NCBI GenBank assembly: GCA_021234155.1
Contig: JAJEKV010000113.1
Location: forward strand, 744,001 to 808,000
DNA length: 64,000 nt
Direction of reading: 5' to 3'
Source of the DNA: Isoetes taiwanensis
Lineage: Eukaryota; Streptophyta; Lycopodiopsida; Isoetales; Isoetaceae
Positions within the stretch are counted from its first letter, which is position 1, and each line of letters begins with the position of its first letter. The notes beneath the pieces were generated by a model. It was given only the letters and a program-made list of their open reading frames with translations. It made no database searches and had not been told where the DNA came from. This document shows positions 1,752-35,738 of the stretch, piece after piece. The translations under genes were made by a program, and so were the position numbers.

Positions 1752-2335
1752 TGATGAACTTGAGACCAATATATGCAAACTACTAGTCAATTTTCCTAGC
1801 AACAATCATTCACAATGCAATGATAACTTGAATAGTAGTGCCTTAGCAACAATGAACGAAATTAACCATTAAACTATTGAGAAAATATTCAACGGTTACT
1901 GTTCATTTGAGATTGACCAGGTTACTGTAGATGCATTGACCGAATTCTTTCTGCTCCAATTTGAACTTTAATCAATCGAATGCCTCACTGCACATGCCGG
2001 AAATGCCTGTAATTCACTATGTATTGAATGATCCCAATATGGGATATATGTACAAGATTCTCTTCGTCGGTTTTGGCTACAGAATCGACCGACTCTGATG
2101 TGTTTCATTTTGAATGGTTTTTGGCTCCATGTCGGTCGCCTTCACCTCTTGAACATATTTAGCATTAACTATTTACAATTAACCATTGAACAATGGTTCA
2201 TATTTACACCGATGGCATAACCATAATATACTAGGTTAATATGAAGTTACCTAGGTCTTGTGAATTCTTCCATGGTCATAACCATTTGCATGCAGTTCTC
2301 AAAATATATGATGAACCTACCCATAAATATCAACA
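1752..2335 (-). repeat. Copia 5' LTR (about 584 bp)
   Basis: The inner edge is fixed by the adjacent PBS. On the minus strand the LTR would start TGTTGATATT (2335 leftwards) and end GTTCATCA at 1752, giving TG...CA ends. The outer end is placed where AT-rich sequence gives way to LINE endonuclease coding sequence, so it is accurate only to a few bases. The partner LTR is outside the window. Confidence 0.7.
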
Positions 2336-4060
2336 CATCTCGGCGTAGTCCTCTGCCTGCTCATAATCCAGTCGCAACTGAGGATGGCGAGGGGCTGGTA
2401 TAGTGGGGGTTCTGGCGGCTTGCCAAGCCATGTCCAAATAAAGTGGGAGGTGATCTGAGTCGACCTCCTTATCCCGACTGTCGGTGCCCACCCGAAAACG
2501 ACTGATGAGATGCATATCTTGCGCAACTACGAGCACATAGTCCACCACACTAGACCCTCCCCCCTGATTGTCCTGTCTGCAGGTGCACTTGTGAGAAGCG
2601 GGCCACTGTGACAGACCATTGCAAATTATCAAGTCAAAAATACCACATAGCAGGAGCAATTGTTCACCAAAGCGAGTGACCCGGGCGTCATCATCCGATC
2701 GTCGTGGGCGGGTTGCCTCTCTGCGGGGCGTAAATTATCCAGGACATCGTCGGCCGAGGGGGTCAAGTCTCATGGGCTGCTCTACTCCTGTCCGTGCATT
2801 GAAATCCCCAAGAAGGACGACCCTACCCAACTGCTTGTGCTACTGTATGTCATCATATAGATTGACATAAGGGTCCATCCTATCCGCATCGAAAGTGGTT
2901 CGCGATAGAAGGTGCTCTCTGCGTGAGGGAAACAACAAAGCGCCGTAAAAGAGGGGTGCCACCGGTATTATGCACACGAACCCACAAGTACCGGTTGTGT
3001 GCGTGCGCCTTCCGAGGGTAACCGAATGTGCCAAGGTTATCCGGGTAGTAGCAAGCAACCCCACCATGACCCCTCTCGCCTGCATGTGTATTGAAGACCG
3101 AGAAATGTTGGTAACCCTACAGATCGTAGCTCGCGGCCCGACATGCTCCCATGTCTCCATGAGAAAGATGAGATCCATATCGGCTGCCACCTGAAGTTGA
3201 GACTATCCCCTTACGCCAAGGGAAGCCTCGACAATTCCATGAGACCACCCGAGGCACAATTCCTATTTGTCGCCAAGCAGGGTATGCGCGCAACCGAGTC
3301 AGCGGGGGAGGACGGGAAGCGAGGGCCGAGTGAGAAGTAGATGGAGCCGAGGCAAAGATGTGGTGGTATGTATGCGGATCGTGGAGGGAAGCGGGAGTAG
3401 GAGCGGAGGAGAAGGGGTGCCGTGGTAGGAGAAGTAGAAGCGGGCGCGACCGGGCGATTGGGGTCGCGGGTCCGATGCATGTAGCAACATGGAAAAATGT
3501 GCATCCCGCCGAACCAATCCTGCGGCACCCCCGTGGTGGCGGATGCCTCGACCACGACAAGCTCCCTCTGCGTGCCTTCTGTTGTGCGGGTGTGAGGTCC
3601 CGGTCCACGCATGAGGGGGCGCCCCTTCAAATCTTGCCCTAGCGCAATATGGCATCACGCACTGCGCATCCGCAACCGCCGAATATGACAATGCGGCATT
3701 CACGACTTCGAAATGGAAGCATGGCGGACCTCGGGAAATGTGAATCGGGCGCCGAATGTCATCCGATCGAGAATGTGTGTTCGGATGTTGTGGGCGACTC
3801 TCCCCTCCTCTTACGGCATGCCTCGGACTACCGTGTTGTGGCCTCTCCGTCTGGCGCTCTTGGAGTTCTCGGCTGCCCGCGTCAAGGGTGGGCGGCGAGG
3901 GGCCGGCCTGGGGGTGGTGGTGGTGGCTGGGATGGCGTGGGGTGGCTTGAGTGCGGGGCAGTAGTGCGTGGTCCTGGCTGCCGGCGTGCAGGCTGTGCAT
4001 ACTGGGGAGGTGGTCAAAATATAGCCATTCAAAGACATCAATCCTTAACTCCACAACTTA
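2336..4060 (-). pseudogene. LINE (non-LTR) retrotransposon fragment: 5' region and endonuclease domain
   Basis: On the minus strand this encodes a degenerate APE-type (EEP) endonuclease, which nicks target DNA for LINE integration. Motifs in order are VVSWNCRG near 3255 (domain start), FLMETWEHVGPR near 3150, LLGDFNARTG near 2800 (catalytic D and N region) and VDSDHLPLYLDM near 2440 (terminal SDH motif). They are split over three frames. There is a frameshift near 3190-3220 and an in-frame TAG just before the GDFN motif, so it is dead. Sequence from about 3300 to 4060 is GC-rich and proline/serine-rich in translation, like the 5' region or ORF1 of a LINE, but I cannot identify a domain. No reverse transcriptase follows; the Copia 5' LTR begins immediately instead. 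If Copia inserted here, the RT half lies left of the window. Confidence 0.8.
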
Positions 4061-5226
4061 CCTTGCAGTGAGCACACTGATTCCAACCATAGTGCCTAAA
4101 GGAAAGCAAGTTGCGAAGTAAGTCCTGATGCAGTTGAAATATTACAATGGAACATTGAACATAGAGATTGCATATGGGAACCTCGACAGTCCTGCAACCT
4201 CAAGTTGAGACAAACATGAATTTGGGCTTGCTCTCATGCCAGGGCATTTATTAGTGGCTCTAGCGGGCCAGTTGGCCACATATTGATATATTTCATAAAA
4301 TAGTCAGCCATGCCAGAGTAGGAAAGGGTAGTGGCCAGTTCAAAACACCATTTTATTAAATCCAGTGCATAAGTGGCTAATTTGATATTTGCCAAATCTT
4401 CAAACCCCTAGCGCATGGCCATTCCAAAATATCATGCACAATAGCGACTTGTTGTGGTGGCCATTTAAACCATGGAATAATTTTATGCTTCTAGGGTTAT
4501 GACCCAGCTCTATATTGGTGCAACTGCCTTGATGCAACTCAGATGCAATCTTCCATGCTCTTGCCTCCTCGGTGCTCCTCTGCCTTCAGCCCTACAAAAG
4601 CTCTTGCAAAGTCCTCCTTAAAAGCAGCAAAACCCTTGCTTTTTATGCTCTCTGTGCATGCATGCCAAGCACGTATACATACGTATATAAATACATATAT
4701 TGGTCCATCAGATGGCTAGGCCTGTTTCACATTACTAGCTCCAAATCAATTCCATGCTTACACGGAGTCCACAATGCTACTTGCATTTGCCCATGAAGAT
4801 GCACAGATTTATAGCTTCAATTCACATAGGTGCAAATTACCTTTGAATTGAGACAGGTAAATGGGCTCAGGAGGCGCGTGAGGATAGACTTTGTCAGTGT
4901 TGCCAATAGGGTGTCATTAAGAATGAATGTCAACTCTTTAGAGCTGTTTGGCATTCGCCCACATCCAGGTCCGCAATGCTGATCTGATCTCGCCTAACAA
5001 GCTGCTCCAATGTGCTGATGGACATGGCTTCAGGTTCCTCGCTACGGGTGGCATAAATGATGCCATTTTTAGCCCTAAATAATAGCGCTAATTAAGGGGG
5101 TTTAATTGAATTTTTAAATTTTATTTTAGCACTAAATCCCGCCCATGGGATCCTAAACCGTTGAACCTTTCCTCCTTTCCTTTTTTCTTGGAGTTTCTTG
5201 GATCGGATTCAGAAACATAGCTGCTC
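4061..5226. other. Intergenic, no gene seen
   Basis: AT-rich sequence with no credible coding region or clear repeat boundary. Words resembling TGGCCA(T/G)TTNAAA recur near 4265, 4330, 4425 and 4470, without clear unit structure. Confidence 0.5.
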
Positions 5227-5545
5227 CCCATCGAGATCCACGTACTCTGCTTGGTTAACTGGCCGGATCAAATTGTTGTGACTGTTCTGCTCCTACAGCA
5301 GTAATTATCGAATTCCGTTATTTGTACCATTCTAAACAATTGGCAGTCATTAGATTCAACAAAATCCCCAATCGAGATCCCATTTCCCTGCTTGGTTAAC
5401 TGGCCAGATTAAATTGCTGTGACTGTGCTGCTTCCACACCAGTAATTATCGAATTCGGTTATTTGTACCATTCTAAACAATCGATTGCCAGACAATCGAG
5501 ATCCCATTACCCTGCTTGGTAAAGAGCTCGGATCAAATTGCTCAT
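5227..5545. repeat. Local tandem duplication, about 2.3 copies of 124-141 bp
   Basis: The block starting ATCGAGATCC, followed by CTGCTTGGTTAACTGGCC, occurs at 5230, 5371 and (partial) 5495. The first two copies are also alike in their second halves, with GTAATTATCGAATTC and TTATTTGTACCATTCTAAAC. Spacing is 141 then 124 bases. The third copy breaks off near 5540. Confidence 0.85.
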
Positions 5546-5819
5546 CTGAACAATTTCCCAGACTCAAGAAAAGTTGTTTTAGTGGTAAGCATCTAATCTT
5601 TGTTGATAAATCTTTGGGAATGGTAAATAATGTGGAAATGGTTTCATTCTATTATTTTATATTTCATGCTTCTATATTGAAGTTAAAGGTTAATGTAGCA
5701 GGTGTGGAGGATTGCATTCCATCTTGCTTTGATTCATCTCTTTATTAGTGTGATATTTCAAGCTACAATTTTTTGGGCTTGGCATCAGCGGAAAGTACAG
5801 CACAGTAATGTTTGGTCGT

Positions 5820-6013
5820 GCAAGTTCAGTAATTGATGCTAACGAGTTTAGCATTTGGTACTATGTTTGCAGACAATCAGTTAGCAAATTATGCTAACAG
5901 ATTATATTGGTACTATGTTTCGCAGGCAGTACTTGCTAGTTAGTATGTGCTGGGTACCCGAGTTACTTAGTGATTTCGTTCTATGTTTGCAGGCAACATT
6001 TGCTAAGTAGCAG
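5820..6013. repeat. Short imperfect repeats with splice-acceptor-like core
   Basis: The core CTATGTTTGCAG, once as CTATGTTTCGCAG, occurs near 5861, 5915 and 5981, with GCTAAC/GTTAGC words between. Similar pieces continue right of the TTAA-flanked element (8702-8990, e.g. CTACACTTGCAG, TTTTTTGCAG and many GCTAAG words). The element therefore split this array. Confidence 0.6.
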
Positions 6014-6019
6014 GTTACA

Positions 6020-8701
6020 TTAACACTAGAGTGGTCCCGGGGACCATTCCTGGTCCATGGACCAGAACTGGTCCAGTTGACCCACTGTCACTTAAACTAA
6101 TATATCTGAGAATAGAAGTTTCAATTTCGCGATATATCGCCACCATATCAATCTTTACTTGATTCTTAATGACCTTCGAGAATTTCAAGACTAATGAATT
6201 CACCTATATGTTGTAGTGATTGTTCAAATATTAGAGAATTTGACAGTTTCTGCAATAGTCCAGAACTGCATTCTTGGGTTTTCCTAGCATAAACAAGCCT
6301 AAACCTTGCTAAAATTGGAAGTATTTGTCTATTTACGATAGAACATATTGATTTATATCTTTTCAGCTTTGGTTGCTATCATCTAACGCCCGTGGAAGCC
6401 GGCAAACCCTATTTTGTTCAAAAATGTTGCATGCGGTTTAGGAATTATTTCTCTCTTATTATTACAAGTTTTGAGTTAATTCTTGTGGCCATGTATTCTT
6501 AACTATATGAAGTATAATCTTATGTTTTTTTTGGAGTGTTCATAAGTTATATCAACTTCAAAATCTAATAGAGAATTTCCAATACAGAATTTAGGACAAA
6601 ATTATATGTTAAAATGCTCCAATATCACCACCTGTAAGTATCACGAGGGTAATGAATGATGCATTCTTCTTATATCTACATAGAAAATTACTCTATCAAC
6701 TTGCATATAGTGTAATTAGGGTTTAACCATGCAATTAACTAGATTTAAAGATGATGTACAACCATAGGATTAACACGTTAGAGGTTAAAAATTTGAGTTA
6801 ATTCCAAAATTATAGGCTGAAAACTCATCATTTACTAGCTAGTGATGTTTATTGATGAATGAAAGTGAAGATTATGAAGTTTAAGTATAAAAATAAAAAA
6901 ATTAAACCATATGACCTTTGATGCGTCTTTCTTAGCTTTGTAGAAAACACACTACATTTCTCCAAATAAGCCTTTCAAATGGTTCAAAATATGACAAGGG
7001 ACATATATATATAGGTCGCCTATATAGGTTGTGTGGCTTTCTTGCAAAGATATATAGAGAAACATGGTTATTTTTTACTAGTATAAAACTGGTGTATCCA
7101 TTGCTGCTACAAAGCATTAGAGTTCTAGTAGGATAATGTTACAAGTAGGTCATCTTTTATGTACACTATATTTTTTCATGAATGCGGGCCTTCCTTTGCA
7201 ATATAACTCTCAATTTTTATATTGAAATAATATACTATTTGAAAGATATGAATATAATTAAGCATGAACCATTTATGGTCCATAACTAGACCAATTGTAT
7301 AGAGCATATACTCTCACTAACCCTATCCATTTTATCCCCATAATGATACCATGGTTTCCTACCTTTAACAATATAATTTTTGAATGGTGTAAGTGGAAGC
7401 CCATGTAGATTCAATTGGCAAATAAATACCCCATAAATTCACAGTTATTTGTACTTAAACATTGCCCTCAAATTATGGAAACTCGTCTAACCAATTATTT
7501 TTACCCCATAGAGAACTGTACGCATAAACTATATTCTAAAGTTGAGATCAAAATTGATTAAGATGTTGCCTCTATTAATTTTTAAACTTCCAGTCCTGTG
7601 GACCAATAATGGTCTGCAAGTGGAGCTGCACATAGCAGTCTAACTTGACTTTTTATAGCCATAAACTTTTGTATTTTTCTTTGAATTTTTTTGCATTGAT
7701 TTCATGACATGGGACATTTTGAGAATGTGTTTTTTTAAAGGCACATCTCGAGGCATAAATCTAGAATAAACATAGAAGACATATTTGAATTTGATGCTAT
7801 AAAGTTTAATCCAAATCTCAAGGTTATGATCAACAAATAATTTCCTTACTAAAGTAAATGAGAAGCTATTCATATCCCAAAATTTAACTTTAGATCAATT
7901 AATATAAGGAAGTTATTGATTTTAAATGGACCTATGGACCAATAATGGGCTCAGGTACAGAAACCTTTCTTGATTTCTTGTGACCATGTCTTTTGCTTTT
8001 TTAATGAGCTTGTTTTTGCATTGGTTTCATATCATTTTGAACTTTCATATTATGATTTTTTGGAGGACATCATAGAGTAAGTTTTGTTCTACGGGGGGAA
8101 ATATTAATCATTATTACAAGTTACCTAAAATTGAGATCAAAAATGAAAGTCCAAACGTCAAATTCAAGGCCAGCCAACATTTTTATGGGATGAAGAAACT
8201 TGTCAATTGCTTATATGTCAAATGTTAGCTCAAAATGCATTTCCTTGTAAAAGTTGTTGTATTTAAACTACAACTGCCTTCTGGGAACCATAATTGGTTC
8301 TGAGGAGGCAGAAAGCAGTTTTGACCCTGTCATGTTTGAATGGCCCTATCTTTCTTTACAGACTTCGGATTGACATGTGGTTTTTTGTGTCATTTTCTTT
8401 ATCTCGTGTAGAACAATATCATGATAATCAAAAAATTTGAAAAAATCGTTTTGTCGAGACAGTTTTACTTTATGTAAACATGAAGCTTTTGGTACTTGAC
8501 CCCCCTGAGTTTGCTAGAGCATAACTTACAAGAATGGAGGTGTATATATTTTTAGATATTTTTCTAGTGGACCATGACTGGCATATATGAACTCCTAGGA
8601 AGGGTTCGAATAGATTTTGTACCATTGATTTTATATGAATTTTAAAGTGAACACTGCAAATGGACCATTTCTGGTCCATCACCTGACCACTCTAGTGTTA
8701 A
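6020..8701 (+). mobile_element. TTAA-flanked non-coding DNA transposon, copy 1 (piggyBac-like ends), 2674 bp
   Basis: The body 6024-8697 starts CACTAGAGTGGTC and ends GACCACTCTAGTG, a 13-bp perfect inverted repeat. It is bordered on both sides by TTAA (6020-6023, 8698-8701). An inverted second copy lies at 24969-27652 and is also bordered by TTAA. Duplication of TTAA at both copies fits piggyBac-type integration. The CACTA start suggests CACTA elements, but a 3-bp duplication does not match here (left TAA, right TTA). No ORF longer than about 80 codons and no transposase motif occurs, so it is non-autonomous. The interior carries several palindromes of the form GGACCA-N4-TGGTCC. Confidence 0.75.
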
Positions 8702-9028
8702 GAACGCGAATTTTGTGCTACACTTGCAGGCTCAAATTGTTATTAGCGGCGGTTGCTAAGAAGATGAAGTTCAGTGCTAAGTTAGAACGAGTTAGCTGCT
8801 ATTTAGCATGACATGCTAAGCATTTCTATTTTGCATACAGTAGGCCCAAGGTAATTGGTGTTCATGACAATTAGTAATTATTTGGAAAAAGTAGCAGTTC
8901 ATTGCTAAGCTCTTAGAGTTAGTACTATTCAGGATACTTAGTGCTAAGATTTGGATTGGTTTAGTTTTTTGCAGACACAATGATGAACTTCCAGTGATAT
9001 ATAATTTCAAAGCTGGTGCAGGGATAGA

Positions 9029-13439: not shown

Positions 13440-13940
13440 ACAAATGTCAAATGAATGGATTATGTTAAGGCATATTGTGTATCTATGCATATTGTGTTTG
13501 GTAAAGCGTGAGTCAACAATTTTCAAGTCAACAAGTGTTTCTATGCATTATGTTAAGGCATAAATTGTATAAGTCAACAACTTTCAAGTCAAGAAGTGTG
13601 AATCACCCCCAAGCAAATGTTTGACTTTTATTGACCAACATCTTTGGTAAAGCGTAAGTCAACAATTTTCAAGTCAACAAGTATGAATCACCTCTAAGCT
13701 AAAGTTTTACTTTCATTGACCAACATGTTTCGTAAAGCGTGAGTCAACAATTTTCAAGTCAACAAGTGTGAATTTTTTGACCTATGCTATTCTATGCATT
13801 ATATTAAGGCATATTGTGTAAGACAACAATTTTCAAGTCAACAAGTGTGAATCACCCCCTTTGTTACATGTTTGACTTTCATTGACCAACATGTTTGGTG
13901 AAGCGTAAGTCAACAATTTTGAAGTCAACAAGCAATTTAC
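13440..13940. repeat. Diverged tandem array, unit about 90-110 bp
   Basis: A unit containing GTAAAGCGTGAGTCAACAA, TTTTCAAGTCAACAAGTGTG, AATCACCCCC and TTGACTTTCATTGACCAACA recurs about five times, with starts near 13498, 13566, 13647, 13732 and 13820. Copies differ by substitutions and small indels. No coding potential. Confidence 0.85.
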
Positions 13941-21721: not shown

Positions 21722-22172
21722 AACAAAAACCATTATATTAAATTAAATTAAACCATTACATTAAACCATTACATTACCTTTAAATTAAATCCCCCTTCAA
21801 ACCCCCTTTGGTTTGGGTGCATATTCACACGGGGGGTGACGTAGGGCAAATGAGCCCCTATAATTATGTTTTGCATTACAAAAAATTAACACCATATAGT
21901 ATATTACCTCAAATCTTATAGTATTTTGCAAATCTTGTTATACAGTATAGCAAATTCCATACTAACATACCCCACAAACGAGGAACTTTGCGTACGGTGT
22001 AGATTAAAGAATAAAGGGTGAATATGCCTATCCAACAGCTCTCGTTGCCCGGAGTCACCCCCCGTGTGAATATGCACCCAAACCAAAGGGGGTTTGAAGG
22101 GGGATTTAATTTAAAGGTAATGTAATGGTTTAATGTAATGGTTTAATTTAATTTAATATAATGGTTTTTGTT
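21722..22172. mobile_element. Foldback element with perfect 119-bp inverted arms
   Basis: Left arm 21722-21840 and right arm 22054-22172 are exact reverse complements: the outer end is AACAAAAACCATTATATT, the inner end CACACGGGGGGTGAC. A 213-base AT-rich spacer separates them, and its ends are themselves similar in inverted orientation (GGGCAAATGAGC versus GGGCAACGAGAGC). No ORF. No target duplication is clear just outside the arms. Two GC palindromes lie to the left, GGGCCCGAAGGGCCC near 21614 and GCCCCGAAGGGGC near 21689. Perfect arms imply recent origin or continuing gene conversion. Confidence 0.85.
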
Positions 22173-24964: not shown

Positions 24965-27656
24965 TTAACACTAGAGTTGTCCCATGATGGACCAAAAATG
25001 ATCCATTTGTAGTGTTCGCTTTAAAATTTGTATAAAATCAATGGCACAAAATCTATTCGAACCCTTCCTAGGAGTTTATATATGGCAATCATGCTCTACT
25101 AGAAAAATATCTAAAAATATATACACCTTCATTCTTGTAAGCTATGCTCTAGCAAACTCAGGGGGGTCAAGTACCAAAAGGTTCATGTTTAAATACCAAA
25201 AGGTTCATGTTTAAATAACATCAAACTGTTTCGACAAATAGATTTTTTCATATTTTTTGATTACCATGATATTTTTCTGCACGAGATAGAGAAAAAAAAC
25301 ACAAAAAACCACATGTCAATCCAAAGTCTATGAAGAAAGATAGGGCTATTCAAACATGACAGAGTCAAAACTACTTTTAGCCTCCTCAGAACCAATTATG
25401 GTTCCTAGAAGGCAGTTGTAGTTTAAATACAACAACTTTTACAAGGAAATGCATTTTGAGCTAATATTTGATATATAAGCAATTGACAAGTTCCTTCATC
25501 CCATAAAAATATTGGCTGGCCTCGAATTTTGATATTTGAGCTTTCATTTTTTATCTCAATTTTAGGGAACTTGTAATAATGATTAATGTTTCCGCATATA
25601 GAGCAAAACTTACTCTATGATGTCCTCCAAAAAATCATAGTATGAAAGTTCAAAATTATATGAAACCAATGCAAAAACAAGCTCATTAAAAAAGCAAAAG
25701 ACATGGTCACAAGAAATCAAGAAAGGTTTCTGTACCGGAGCCCATTACTGGTTCATAGGTCCATTTAAAATAAATAACTTCCTTATGTTAATCGATCTCA
25801 AGTTGAATTTTGTGATATGAATAGCTTCTGATTTACTTGAGTAATTGAAAATATTTGTTGAGCATAACCTTGAGATTTGGATTTATCTTTAGAACATTAA
25901 CTTCAAATATGTCTTCTATGTTTATTCTAGATTTATGCCTCGAGATGTGACTTTGAAAAGTCACACTCCCAAAATAAATCAATGAAAAAAAAGTTCAAAG
26001 AAAAATATGAAAGTTTATGACCATAAAAAGTCAAGTTAGACTGCTATGTGCAGTTCCACTGCAGACCATTATTGGTCCACAGGATTGGAAGTTTAAAAAT
26101 TAATAGAGGCAACATCTTTATCAATTTTGATCCCAATTTTGGAATAGAGATTATTCGTACAGTTCTCTATAGGATAAAATTGGTTGGTTAGACGAGCTTG
26201 CATAATTTGAGGGCAATGTTTAAGCACAAACAACTGTGAATTTATGAGGTACTTATTCATCAATTGAATCTACATGGACTTTTACTCAAACCTTTCAAAA
26301 ATTATATTATTAAATATAAGAAACCATGGTATTATTATAGGGACAAAATGGATAGGGCTTGAGAGGGATATATGCTCTATACAATTGGTCTAGTTATGGA
26401 CCATAAATCGTCCATGCTTAATTATATTCGTATCTTCCAAATAATATGTTATTTCAATATGAAAATTGAGAGTTATATTGCAACGTAAGGCCCGCATTCA
26501 TGAAAAATATAGTGTACATGAAAGATGACCCACGTGTAACATTATCGTACTAAAACTTCAATGCTTTGTAGCAGCAATAGATATACTAGTTTTATACTAG
26601 TAAGAAATAACGATGTTTCTCCGTATTTTTTTGCAAGAAGGCCACACAATCTACATAGTGGACCTATATATATGTCCCTTGTCATATTATTGAACCATTT
26701 TGAAGGCTTATTTGGAGAAATGTAGCATGTTCTCTACAAAGCTGAGAAAGACGCATCAAAGGCCATGTAGATTAGTTATTGATTCTCACAGTTAAACTTC
26801 AAGATCTTCACTTCATTCATCAATAAACATCACTAACTATATAAATGCTCAGTCTTTAGCCTATAATTTTGGAATTAACTCAAATTTTTAACCTCTAATG
26901 TGGTAATCCTGTGGTTGTACATCATCTTTAAATTTAGTTAATTGCATGGTTAAATCCTAATTACACTATATGCAAGTTGATAGAGTAATTTTTCATGTAG
27001 ATATAAGTAGAATGCATCATTCATTACCCTCATCATACTTATAGATGGTGATTTTGGAGGATTTTAACATATAATTTTGTCTAAATTTCTGTATAAGAAA
27101 TTCTCTATTAAATTTGGGAGTTGATATAACTTATGAACACTTCCAAAAAAACATGACATTGTACTTCATATAGTTAACAACTCATGGCCACAAGAATTAA
27201 ACCAAAACTTGTAATAATAAGAGAGAAATAATTCCTAAACCGTAAGCAACATTTTATAACAAAATGAGGTTTGGCGGCTTCCATGGATGTTAGATGATAG
27301 CAACCAAAGCTGAAAACATACAAATCAATGTGTCCTATCATAGATAAGCAAGCACTTCCAATTTTAACAAGGTTTAGATCTGCTTATGGTAGGAGAACTC
27401 AAGAATGCAGTGCTGAACTGTTGCAAAAATTGGCAAATTCTCTAAAATTTGGACAATCACCACAACATACAGGTGAGTTCATTGGTCGTGAGATTTTCCA
27501 AGATCATTAAGAATCAAGTAATGATTGATATGGCAGTAATATATTGTAAAATTAAAACTTCTATTCTCATATATAATGGTTTAAATGGCAGTGGGTCAAC
27601 TGGATCAATTCTGGTCCATGGATCAGGAATAGTCCCCGGGACAACTCTAGTGTTAA
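24965..27656 (-). mobile_element. TTAA-flanked non-coding DNA transposon, copy 2, inverted, 2684 bp
   Basis: The body 24969-27652 starts CACTAGAGTTGTCCC and ends GGGACAACTCTAGTG, a perfect 15-bp inverted repeat, with TTAA on both sides (24965-24968, 27653-27656). It is collinear with copy 1 at 6024-8697 when reverse-complemented: shared landmarks include the CCATAATTGG/CCAATTATGG motif, the GACCATTATTGGTCC palindrome near 26064 and the region CATGACAAAG/CATGTCTTTTGC. The copies differ at many sites, so neither is very recent. No transposase coding sequence remains in either. Confidence 0.75.
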
Positions 27657-28861: not shown

Positions 28862-29617
28862 TCAGCCTGGATCTGTCATAATCTTCAGTAAGTTTCTGTC
28901 ATGCTGAAATTTGTCTCGGGCAAGTGCTTTAGTCATTATGTCAGCTAGCATCTCCATAGTTGGGCAGTATAAGAAACTGATCACACCATTTTGAACTTGG
29001 TCTTTTATAAAATGATATCTTGTTCCAATGTGACGAGTTCTTGGATGATACTTTAGAGAGTTAGCCATAGCAATTGCACTTTGATTATCACCATATAATA
29101 AAGTAGGTGCTTGTTGCTCCAGCATAATTCCTCTCAACATTTGACGTAACCAGATTTCTTCTTGTGCAGCAAAGCTAGCTGCAACATATTCGTATTCTAT
29201 ACTAGATAGTGCCACTATTGTCTGTTTCTTACTCTTCCACGATATAATGGAATCTCCAACAAAGAAGACGAATCCGGAAGTAGATCTTCTAGTATCTTGT
29301 TCGCCTGCCCAATCTGAATCAGTATATCCAACCAATCTGAATGATTCTTTATCATCAACTCTAGAATAATATAAAGCATGATCCCTTGTTTCTTGAAGAT
29401 ATCGTATAATGCGCTTCACTGCTGTCCAATGTGCTTCACCTGGATTTTCCAAGAACTGGCTAACCACTCCCACTGCATATGACAAGTCTAGTCTTGTACA
29501 TATTGCTAGATAAATCAAGCAACCCACAGCGTGTCGATAAGGAACCTGACGCATGCGAGCTATCTCGGAATCCGTTTTAGGAGACATATCAGATGTAAGT
29601 TTTACATACGTCTCCAT
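28862..29617 (-). pseudogene. Copia RNase H domain and RT C-terminus
   Basis: RNase H removes the RNA strand during reverse transcription. The frame is open for about 250 codons. It begins in the RT connection region (VPYRHAVGCLIYLAICTRLD), passes through YTDSDWAGEQDTRRSTSGFV, the first catalytic Asp region of Copia RNase H, then VALSSIEYEYVAASFAAQEE and LLYGDNQSAIAMAN, and ends shortly before the polypurine tract. Catalytic D-E-D motifs are present. It is separated from the upstream RT by stops and a deletion, so it would not be made as part of a working polyprotein. Confidence 0.9.
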
Positions 29618-29718
29618 TGGTGTTGAGACTGGTTTGCTATCTTACATGTTGAATCTTATAAGCACATCATCAATATGTTTGCTTTGAACTAACCTCAAGC
29701 GACCCTCTTCAAGATTTC

Positions 29719-30219
29719 TCACCACCTATATGCCAAGACAATAACTGATCTCTCCCATGTAACGTACAAGGCGACAATGACAAAAAATTCTCCCACGGTT
29801 TTAACATAAACATTGCCATCTGCCTCAGTACCTGTAAAACCAAGAGACAAAAGATAAGTATTAATACGATTATACCATGCCTTGGGGGATTGCTTGAGCC
29901 CGTATAATGCTTTCTTCAACTTGCAAACAAGATGTTCTTGACCCCTTTTGATATAACCTTCAGGTTGGAAAATAAAAATCTCCTCTTGAAGCTCTCCATG
30001 AAGAAAAGCAGTGCGTACATCCATTTGGTGTACTTCAAGATTAGCATGAGCAGCAAAAGCAAGCAGGATTCGAATGGAAGACATACTCACTACAGGTGAG
30101 AATGTGTCAAAGAAATCAATGCCTTCCACTTGAGAGAAACCTCTCGCAACAAACCTTGCCTTCCACCGCTCTACTTGGCCAGCCGCATCTCGCTTTCCAA
30201 ACATGGGCATAAGCAACAC
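29719..30219 (-). pseudogene. Copia reverse transcriptase, truncated
   Basis: The RT fingers and palm are visible: KARFVARGFSQVEGIDFFDT, FSPVVSMSSIRILLAF, VHQMDVRTAFLHGELQEEIF (first catalytic Asp) and LKKALYGLKQSPKAWYNRIN. After VIVALYV the expected YVDD active-site loop is replaced by unrelated residues, so DNA synthesis is impossible. The N-terminal RT region is also missing: coding jumps from integrase to this point in an overlapping frame at 30171-30219. Confidence 0.9.
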
Positions 30220-30851
30220 ATCCGAACTATATGGCTAAGGGCTGGCTTCTTTCCTGTCCATGCTTCATATGGGGTAATGCCATTTACTCCGGACGTAGGC
30301 AACCTATTTCTCAAGTAACCTGCTGTTGTTACTGCTTCTCCCCAGAACATGTTAGGCATACTAGCAAAATTCAACATTGCTTTAGCACTTTCCATCAAGA
30401 TCCTGTTCATGCATTCTGCAACTCCATTTTGTTGCGGAGTACATGGAGTTGTGTGCTGGTGAATAATACCTGTCTCCTTGCAATATTGATCAAATTCCCC
30501 TAAAAAATACTCTCCACCACCATCGCTTCGCAGAACCTTAATTAATTGCCCTTTTTGTCTTTCCATTTGAATGCGGAACTCTCTGAACATAGCTAGTACT
30601 TCAGATTTTCTTGTAAGAAGTCTAACTGTCACAAACCTGGAAAAGTCATCGATGAAGGTCAACATATAGTGTTTCCTTCCCATAGTCATGGTCTGCATTG
30701 GCCCACATACGTCAGAGTGTACAATCTCCAAAGGTGCACTGGCTCTCCCACTTTCTCCTACTGGAAATGATGTTCTACTATGTTTTCCCATCACGCACGC
30801 CTCACAGAATTCAAGCATATCATCTTCAAAGGGTTCAAGATCATCAACCAT
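30171..30851 (-). pseudogene. Copia integrase core
   Basis: Integrase inserts retrotransposon DNA into the genome. The frame shows the end of the zinc-binding region (CEACVMGKHSRTSF), then the DDE core: HSDVCGPMQT, FIDDFSRFVTVRLL, VLRSDGGGEY, and TPCTPQQNGVAECMNRILME with the catalytic Glu replaced in context (ECMNR where ERMNR is usual). It ends near TPYEAWTGKKPALSH. The rest of integrase is deleted and the frame drifts into RT sequence out of phase. In-frame upstream sequence continues to about 30900. Confidence 0.9.
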
Positions 30852-33641: not shown

Positions 33642-35738
33642 GAGTTGTTGCCCCTTCACCTGATGCTCTTGTAGCTGATTCAACTATCATCAAGCAAAAG
33701 AGAACTCCCAAAACTCGTCCAATCATTCTGAAATCTGCAAACACAGACTTGCCTGTTGGAAAGAAAAGAGTGAGGAATTCCACTAGAGGGTCTTGGACTA
33801 TGGAGAGTCTGCAAGAGGCCATTGAATCCATTGAGTCTGGGATTTTCAGCATAAGAAAGGCAGCCAAACACTTTGGCATTCCTCAGACCACTGTCAGAAA
33901 CCATTTGTATGGATTGAGCCAAAGCAAATTTGGTGCTATTCCAAAAGCACTAACGAAGGATGAAGAACAATATCTTGTGGATTGGTGCTTTAAGCTCTGT
34001 TCTGAGGGTAGGGCAATTACCCTAGGAATACTTAGGCAGAAGGTTGCAGAAATGACAATTAATAGGCATACTTCTTTTAAAGATGGTCTTCCAGGACCTA
34101 AATGGTGGCAAGGCTTTAAGAGGAGGCATCCTCAAGTGGTTTTAAGGTCTTCTCAATGTGTGGACATGTCTAGAGTGAAGGCAGTTACAACATCAAACTT
34201 GTCTAATTTTTATTCCACTTTGCAATCTGTTTATGATAAGCTTAATGTGGATGCTTCTCGTGTGTGGAATTGTGATGAGACAGGTGTGCAGGCTGGAAAC
34301 AGGACATCTATGAGGGTCATTGCACGGAAAGGAATGAGAAATGTGAGTGAAACAATACCTACAAATCGGGAATGGCTTAGTGTTTTATCTGCGTGAATGC
34401 GCAGGGAGGTAAATTACCTAATTTGTATGTATTTAAAGGAAAAAGAATGAGGGATTCAGATTTGTTACTTGGCTGTGAGCCTGGGGCTGTGATGTCTTTT
34501 CAAAAAAAGGCTTGGATAACTGATGTATTATTTAATGCATGGATAGATCATTTCAGATCAACTGTACCTGGTGGAATAAGTGAGGATAGACCTCATCTTT
34601 TGATTTGTGATGGACATGGATCTCATGTCACAACTGAAACAATTCAGAAGGCCAAAGGATTTGGACTTCACATTTTGCAGTTACCTCCTCACACTTCACA
34701 TAGGCTGCAACCATTGGACGTTGCATGCTTTTCTTCATTTAAATATCATTTCAGGAATTACAGATCTCAATTCATGCATAAGCACATGGATGATAAGGAG
34801 AAGAAGGAGCCCAGCAAAGAAGATTTGGCTAGCATTGTTTCAGATTCCTTGCAGTTGGCTTTGTCTCCTTCAAACATTCAATCTGGTTTTTCTAAAACAG
34901 GTATATGGCCCTTTAATTCCACTGCTGTTACTCCTGAACCTTTGGCTGAACAGTTGGAAGCAGAGTTGAGTGTTCCACAAACACAGCAGCAGTCTGAACC
35001 TGCAGCAGGTCCATCAGTACAAGAAAATTATGATGATGAACAGGTAAATGCTAATGTAAATGCAAATGGAAATGATTCTGGCCTTGTAGCATTGGCTCTA
35101 GCAGCTGAAAATCCAAATTCTTCACCACAACTCCCTTCTGAACTTGCTGCAAATTCTTGTCCTTCACCTCAGATCCATCCTGGACTTGTTTGCATCATGC
35201 ACGACCAAGCAATAGTGAGTGCTCAACCACGGCTGAACTCCGCAAAGCAGAAGTGCAAGCGAAACATGCACCTGCAGCTAAACAAAAGAGAAGGGGAAGA
35301 TTGCCTCCAGGTCTTGTGGGCAAACTTTATGTATCTTCAGATGAGGTTCTTCAAGCTAGGTTGCAGCATCAAAGGCAGATGGAGGAGGCAGCACGAATTA
35401 GGCAACAAAAGTTGGAAGAAAAGAAAGAGTTACAAGAAAAAAGGAAAAAGGCTAAGGAAATTGAGAAAGAAAGGAAAGAAAATGCTAGGAAGGAAAGGGA
35501 AGAAAAGAAAAAGGCACTTGGACATGAAAAAAAGGCCAAGAGAAAGAGAATAGTAATTGAGGATAGTTCAGATGATGAAGAGATTGTTGTGATGGAGTTA
35601 GCAAAAGAAAGATCTAAGACTAGGAGAACTAGAATTAATACTTGTGATGCACTTAACTTAGAAGTTAATATTCCTATTGAAAATGCAGATTTGGTAGATC
35701 TTGTAGATCAAGATGACATATTCCAAGATACAAAATGA
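33642..35738 (+). pseudogene. pogo/Tigger-type DDE_1 transposase, two frameshifts
   Basis: This would cut and paste its own element. Frame 1 (33642-34396) has a psq-type helix-turn-helix, LQEAIESIESGIFSIRKAAK then FGIPQTTVRNHLYG, followed by a CENP-B-type domain ending GLPGPKWWQGFKRRHP. The first catalytic Asp is in VWNCDETGV near 34270. A frameshift near 34393 moves coding to the next frame, with LLICDGHGSH (second Asp, about 34606) and RLQPLDVACF (third Asp, 35 residues later) and the family's GIWPFN motif near 34905. A second shift near 35210-35240 leads to a Lys/Glu-rich coiled-coil tail (GKLYVSSDEVLQARLQHQRQ) ending at 35738. All three catalytic Asp residues are kept; only frame breaks spoil it. 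No upstream ATG is clear; a spliced first exon is possible. Terminal repeats were not resolved. Confidence 0.9.

Follow-up and report, generated by a model that had tools for sequence, protein, structure and literature searches.

Two inverted TTAA-flanked elements

The window, a stretch of 64,000 nucleotides from the genome of the quillwort Isoetes taiwanensis, carries two gene-free elements in opposite orientation, together with several other repeats and transposon-like sequences (Table 1). The two copies share 89.3% identity over 2655 aligned bases and show up as inverted-repeat blocks. Both start CACTAGAG and end CTCTAGTG, and TTAA lies directly outside all four ends; the sizes, positions, common ends and TTAA borders of the pair are as described in the initial annotation. 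The motif TGGWCCA (TGGTCCA/TGGACCA) occurs 9 times in the window element, compared with 0.17 expected in shuffles, three of these within the first 56 bp and three within the last 140 bp. The longest stop-to-stop frame in the majority sequence of 20 copies is 87 codons, and no transposase remnant was found inside the element by tblastn and DNA comparison, in agreement with what had been noted at the outset. The sole tblastn match is terminal-repeat homology, located in a non-transposase frame of the transposase-coding element L034.

Table 1. Features of the window, with positions counted from its first nucleotide.
Feature	Position	Strand	Remarks
Copy 1, non-autonomous piggyBac element	6024..8697	+	2674 bp without TTAA; ends CACTAGAGTGGTC...GACCACTCTAGTG
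Copy 2, non-autonomous piggyBac element	24969..27652	-	2684 bp without TTAA; second subfamily, ends CACTAGAGTTGTC
Left TTAA target-site duplication, copy 1	6020..6023	.	One TTAA in 66/67 empty paralogous sites and in empty site L044
Right TTAA target-site duplication, copy 1	8698..8701	.	Flank reading and empty sites
TTAA target-site duplication, copy 2, low-coordinate side	24965..24968	.	Read directly
TTAA target-site duplication, copy 2, high-coordinate side	27653..27656	.	Read directly
Left terminal block, copy 1	6020..6097	+	Common to transposase-coding elements (92% identity with L029 across 75 bp); palindromic TGGTCCA/TGGACCA repeats
Interior, copy 1, origin without visible source	6098..7956	+	Without long ORF; DNA match to eight transposase elements only ~100 bp, near element position 1574-1678
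Right terminal block, copy 1	7957..8701	+	745 bp including right TTAA; common to transposase-coding elements L029, L030, L033 and L034, 71-78% identity
Dispersed repeat of unassigned class, around copy 1	~5920-6019 and 8702-8801		Copy 1 inserted within it
Array of direct repeats	13471-13932		Short; imperfect 65-85-bp units
Inverted repeat	21722-22172		128-bp arms, 98% complementary, 195 bp between
Copia-like retrotransposon fragments	28862-30851	-	Integrase core E 2.8e-13; remaining parts by eye
Two overlapping transposase-like frames	33749-35553	+	HTH_psq, HTH_Tnp_Tc5, DDE_1 (PF03184, E 1e-22)

Family size, subfamilies and size classes

The genome searched consists of 1110 contigs with a total of 1,658,258,908 bases. 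Its 40 top-scoring matches to copy 1 are all complete or partial copies, 91-97% identical, which puts the copy number at 40 or more. The end letters CACTAGAGTGGTC of copy 1 and CACTAGAGTTGTC of copy 2 mark two subfamilies. The 17-mer TTAACACTAGAGTGGTC, which is the copy-1 end type with TTAA, occurs exactly 314 times genome-wide, and the corresponding copy-2 type, TTAACACTAGAGTTGTC, 982 times, with no occurrence of the reversed control in either case. The closest other genomic copies to copy 2 are 90-92% identical to it, and the copy-1 subfamily ~88%.

Among the matches listed, end pairs of the GTGGTC type are spaced 2.55-2.88 kb apart in 14 of 23 cases and 1.6 kb apart in two, while those of the GTTGTC type are separated by ~1.0 kb in 11/29 and by 2.5-2.9 kb in 12/29. 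The window pair thus belongs to a large family, divided into two subfamilies and varying in size class, and its length without a transposase, initially regarded as unusual, is not very odd in this genome, in which classes of 1.0, 1.6 and 2.65 kb coexist. The ~1.0-kb class with TTAACACTAGAGTTGTC ends (1001-1085 bp, the same 11 of 29 listed end pairs) is likely to represent another dependent piggyBac family, of shorter elements.

The 20 nearest copies differ pairwise by 1.4-5.4%, and by 1.3-3.4% from their own majority; these copies were picked as best matches, so that the family as a whole is more diverse and the values carry no absolute date. Contamination is ruled out by the spread of element copies over many contigs, some of more than 20 Mb, and a plant host is supported by the chlorophyll a/b-binding (light-harvesting) genes carried by the genome.

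The target site and its 4-bp duplication

TTAA is present at both outer ends in 16 of the 20 best copies. In the remaining four, one base is changed (L007), an end is missing (L002), 2 bp are inserted (L004) or the pair reads TTAG (L016). The flanks of these copies are unrelated to each other apart from TTAA. The existence of such a family, mostly with TTAA at both ends and otherwise unrelated flanks, means that the TTAA-bounded copies are not due to chance.

A flank-against-flank comparison among the fetched copies yielded no empty site. When the two flanks of a copy were joined with a single TTAA and run against the genome, unfilled near-identical paralogues were recovered for six target sites (L001, L003, L004, L014, L018 and L019). 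At single-base level, five of these six empty sites hold exactly one TTAA with a joint free of gaps, and the sixth, that of L004, holds one TTAA after allowing for 2 bp inserted at the right end of the L004 copy. For the site of copy 1, 67 unfilled copies were found within two mismatches, with TTAA kept in 66 and no hit for the reversed control. Such unfilled paralogous sites are sites that were never filled, and not excision products. The repeat into which copy 1 inserted is itself dispersed genome-wide, many of its 67 unfilled junction copies being 97-99% identical over 204 bp.

A single TTAA in an empty site is compatible with a duplication of TTAA as well as of TA, TAA or TTA, because the filled site would read identically. 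On this evidence alone, a Tc1/mariner- or Harbinger-like element, which duplicates TA, TAA or TTA with a strong context preference yielding TTAA, would fit equally well. The distinction is provided by four copies situated at non-canonical 4-mers, TTAG/TTAG, TTAC/TTAC, TTAT/TTAT and CTAA/CTAA, each pair being on the same contig and 1.6-5.0 kb apart. The repeats at all four are direct and not inverted, so the four bases represent duplicated target sequence and lie outside the terminal repeat. These non-canonical targets show that the duplication is 4 bp and rule out the 2- and 3-bp models. The outer bases, too, are directly duplicated at these four sites, and this, together with the piggyBac transposase encoded between the same ends (see below), makes a Tc1/mariner- or Harbinger-like origin extremely improbable. 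Among the matches listed, 12 of 20 variant ends have no partner, which may reflect point mutation. The TTAA target, for which the initial annotation had proposed an examination of empty sites, is accordingly seen both as a single TTAA in unfilled paralogues and as a 4-bp direct duplication at variant targets.

A second alternative is that the pair represents a non-autonomous CACTA (EnSpm) element whose 3-bp duplication falls by chance in TTAA. The CACTA letters at the tips and the enrichment of TGGWCCA do resemble CACTA anatomy; however, the duplication is of 4 bp and not of the 3 bp of CACTA/EnSpm, since the variant targets directly duplicate all four bases, with changes at the first position (CTAA) as well as at the fourth (TTAG, TTAC, TTAT). 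In addition, the scanned transposases from same-ended elements (L029, L030 and L031) match PF13843 and not PF02992. We therefore assign this alternative a negligible likelihood. CACTA letters at the ends of an element do not always mean a CACTA transposon, which constitutes a warning for annotators.

Transposase-coding relatives

A profile search of the genome with PF13843 (DDE_Tnp_1_7) gave 111 matches, with a best E of 2.5e-60, and eight transposase loci were read with their flanks. Two of them, L030 (6006 bp) and L034 (5847 bp), are whole elements bounded on either side by TTAA-CACTAGAGTTGT. In L029 (5237 bp) and L033 (5611 bp) one of the two TTAA copies is damaged, and in L031, L032 and L035 the left end with TTAA was seen. 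The other five catalytic domains aligned are 81-87% identical to that of L029. The D-D-D triad aligns with D268/D346/D447, the catalytic residues of Trichoplusia ni (T. ni) piggyBac (PMC7351741). In L030, L031, L032 and L034, the frame continues past the catalytic domain into a C-terminal Cys/His-rich domain, recognised by motif and not by structure. The frames of L030 and L031 are open over 984 and 954 codons, respectively. The integrity of the copies varies, as L034 is damaged, its first triad aspartate being replaced by tyrosine, and the L029 frame ends ahead of the cysteine-rich domain. No PF02992 match was found in the scanned proteins of L029, L030 and L031, in which PF13843 was found, and no transposase relatives were found in viral contigs. 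The suggested search for a transposase gene between the same ends has thus led to relatives of 5.2-6.0 kb that encode PF13843 with a D-D-D triad and a cysteine-rich domain.

Long end pairs were also considered as autonomous partners: L040, L041 and L042 (4-9.5 kb) are copies of the non-autonomous element into which other DNA has inserted, and L043 (1.6 kb) is a derivative shortened by deletion. In L040, a LINE-like element (positions 2153-8178; reverse-transcriptase-like frame, by eye) is nested in the non-autonomous copy. Tandem repeats of ~360-370 bp, visible as self-matches in L030 (5998-7540) and in the reverse complement of L034 (5915-6889), separate the transposase gene from the conserved right end, and related units match position 1938-2042 of the window element.

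Relation of the window element to the transposase elements

On the left, the first 75-108 bp of the window element align with the corresponding ends of L029 (92% identity) and of L032 and L034 (79%). On the right, the final 745 bp align with those of L029, L034 and L030 at 71-76%, and the right end of L033 matches at 78% over 605 bp. Among the loci read, the ends of L029 are the closest (left 78 bp, 92%; right 745 bp, 76%), and the TGGTCCA/TGGACCA arrangement of the left end is also present in L029 and L030. With single-TTAA empty sites, 4-bp duplications at variant targets and, between the same ends, a PF13843 transposase with its D-D-D triad and cysteine-rich domain, the piggyBac reading of the pair proposed at the outset is borne out. 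The window element has no transposase ORF and its terminal blocks are common to transposase-coding elements; we conclude that copies 1 and 2 are non-autonomous members of the piggyBac superfamily (probability about 0.97).

The interior (~80 to 1930) has no relation to the eight transposase elements read, save for ~100 bp, and none of these eight gives the window element by simple internal deletion. One variant of the piggyBac reading holds that the ends captured unrelated genomic DNA, so that the interior is host sequence and not older piggyBac remains. The near-complete mismatch between the interior and the eight elements speaks for capture; however, no host source locus was found in searches whose scored matches were filled by element copies, and the interior could also stem from another piggyBac lineage beyond these eight. 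We regard capture as possible but rather doubtful.

The non-autonomous piggyBac element of the window is presumably a derivative moved in trans. We propose that the transposase of the 5.2-6.0-kb elements would mobilise it by binding both the CACTAGAG tips and the internal palindromes of the TGGTCCA type, and would cut the ends via 4-nt hairpins; the element then inserts at TTAA, with the duplication of those 4 bp that is observed here. In T. ni piggyBac, a dimer of the cysteine-rich domain binds a palindromic internal repeat (PMC7351741), and by analogy the TGGTCCA/TGGACCA palindromes may play a like role. The presence of several transposase lineages with open frames of 950-980 codons, alongside hundreds of dependent copies, can be tentatively read as the mark of a diverse system that might still be, or might recently have been, active in this lycophyte.

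Comparison with known systems

T. ni piggyBac (PDB 6X67) resembles the plant system in its PF13843-type catalytic domain, D-D-D triad, C-terminal cysteine-rich domain, TTAA target and palindromic internal repeats near the ends. Nevertheless, it is only distantly related to the plant transposases (phmmer E 2.1e-23), and it differs from the plant elements, which are 5-6 kb long, start CACTAGAG and have a conserved 745-bp right end, as well as from the gene-free window element. The best sequence match among solved structures is piggyBat of Myotis lucifugus (PDB 9C0F; E 1.1e-33), described with simple 15-bp terminal repeats (PMC8086355), whereas the ends of the plant elements carry extra palindromic subterminal repeats. 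Plant CACTA (EnSpm) elements share the CACTA tip letters and subterminal repeats, but the window family has a 4-bp TTAA duplication and a piggyBac transposase.

PiggyBac is a heavily used transposition system which, to our knowledge, has been studied almost entirely in animals. PiggyBac-like elements of plants are named in a review (PMC8086355), a survey records PiggyBac for every group, land plants included (PMC4438587), and the annotation of the fern Ceratopteris contains 1230 piggyBac fragments (PMC6890710). These earlier plant records, of the same superfamily and kingdom, are list entries or masked fragments; the present data add complete elements as well as empty sites, evidence on the target duplication and a family of dependent, non-autonomous copies. 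The initial remark that piggyBac is poorly known in land plants holds insofar as we found no detailed description of a plant piggyBac system in the literature searched, a body of work outside which most subscription papers and the Repbase reports lie; it does not hold insofar as such elements are already listed from plants. The occurrence of piggyBac in plants is therefore already known, and the Isoetes family adds one more member. What is shown here is that piggyBac, little studied in plants, is abundant in the genome of a lycophyte alongside matching transposase genes.

If a diverse lycophyte system that is still active, or was until recently, were confirmed, it would rank with the first piggyBac systems to be characterised in land plants. 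The open transposase frames, together with the matching ends, the clean empty sites and dependent copies numbering in the hundreds, offer a means of testing native piggyBac function in plants. The Isoetes system also makes it possible to ask whether plant piggyBac originated by old inheritance or horizontal transfer, and how it is silenced by plant genomes.

Other features of the window

The two overlapping frames on the forward strand (Table 1) probably represent, from their domain content, one pogo/Tigger-like transposase disrupted by a frame change. The inverted repeat between copies 1 and 2 is possibly a young foldback or MITE-like element.
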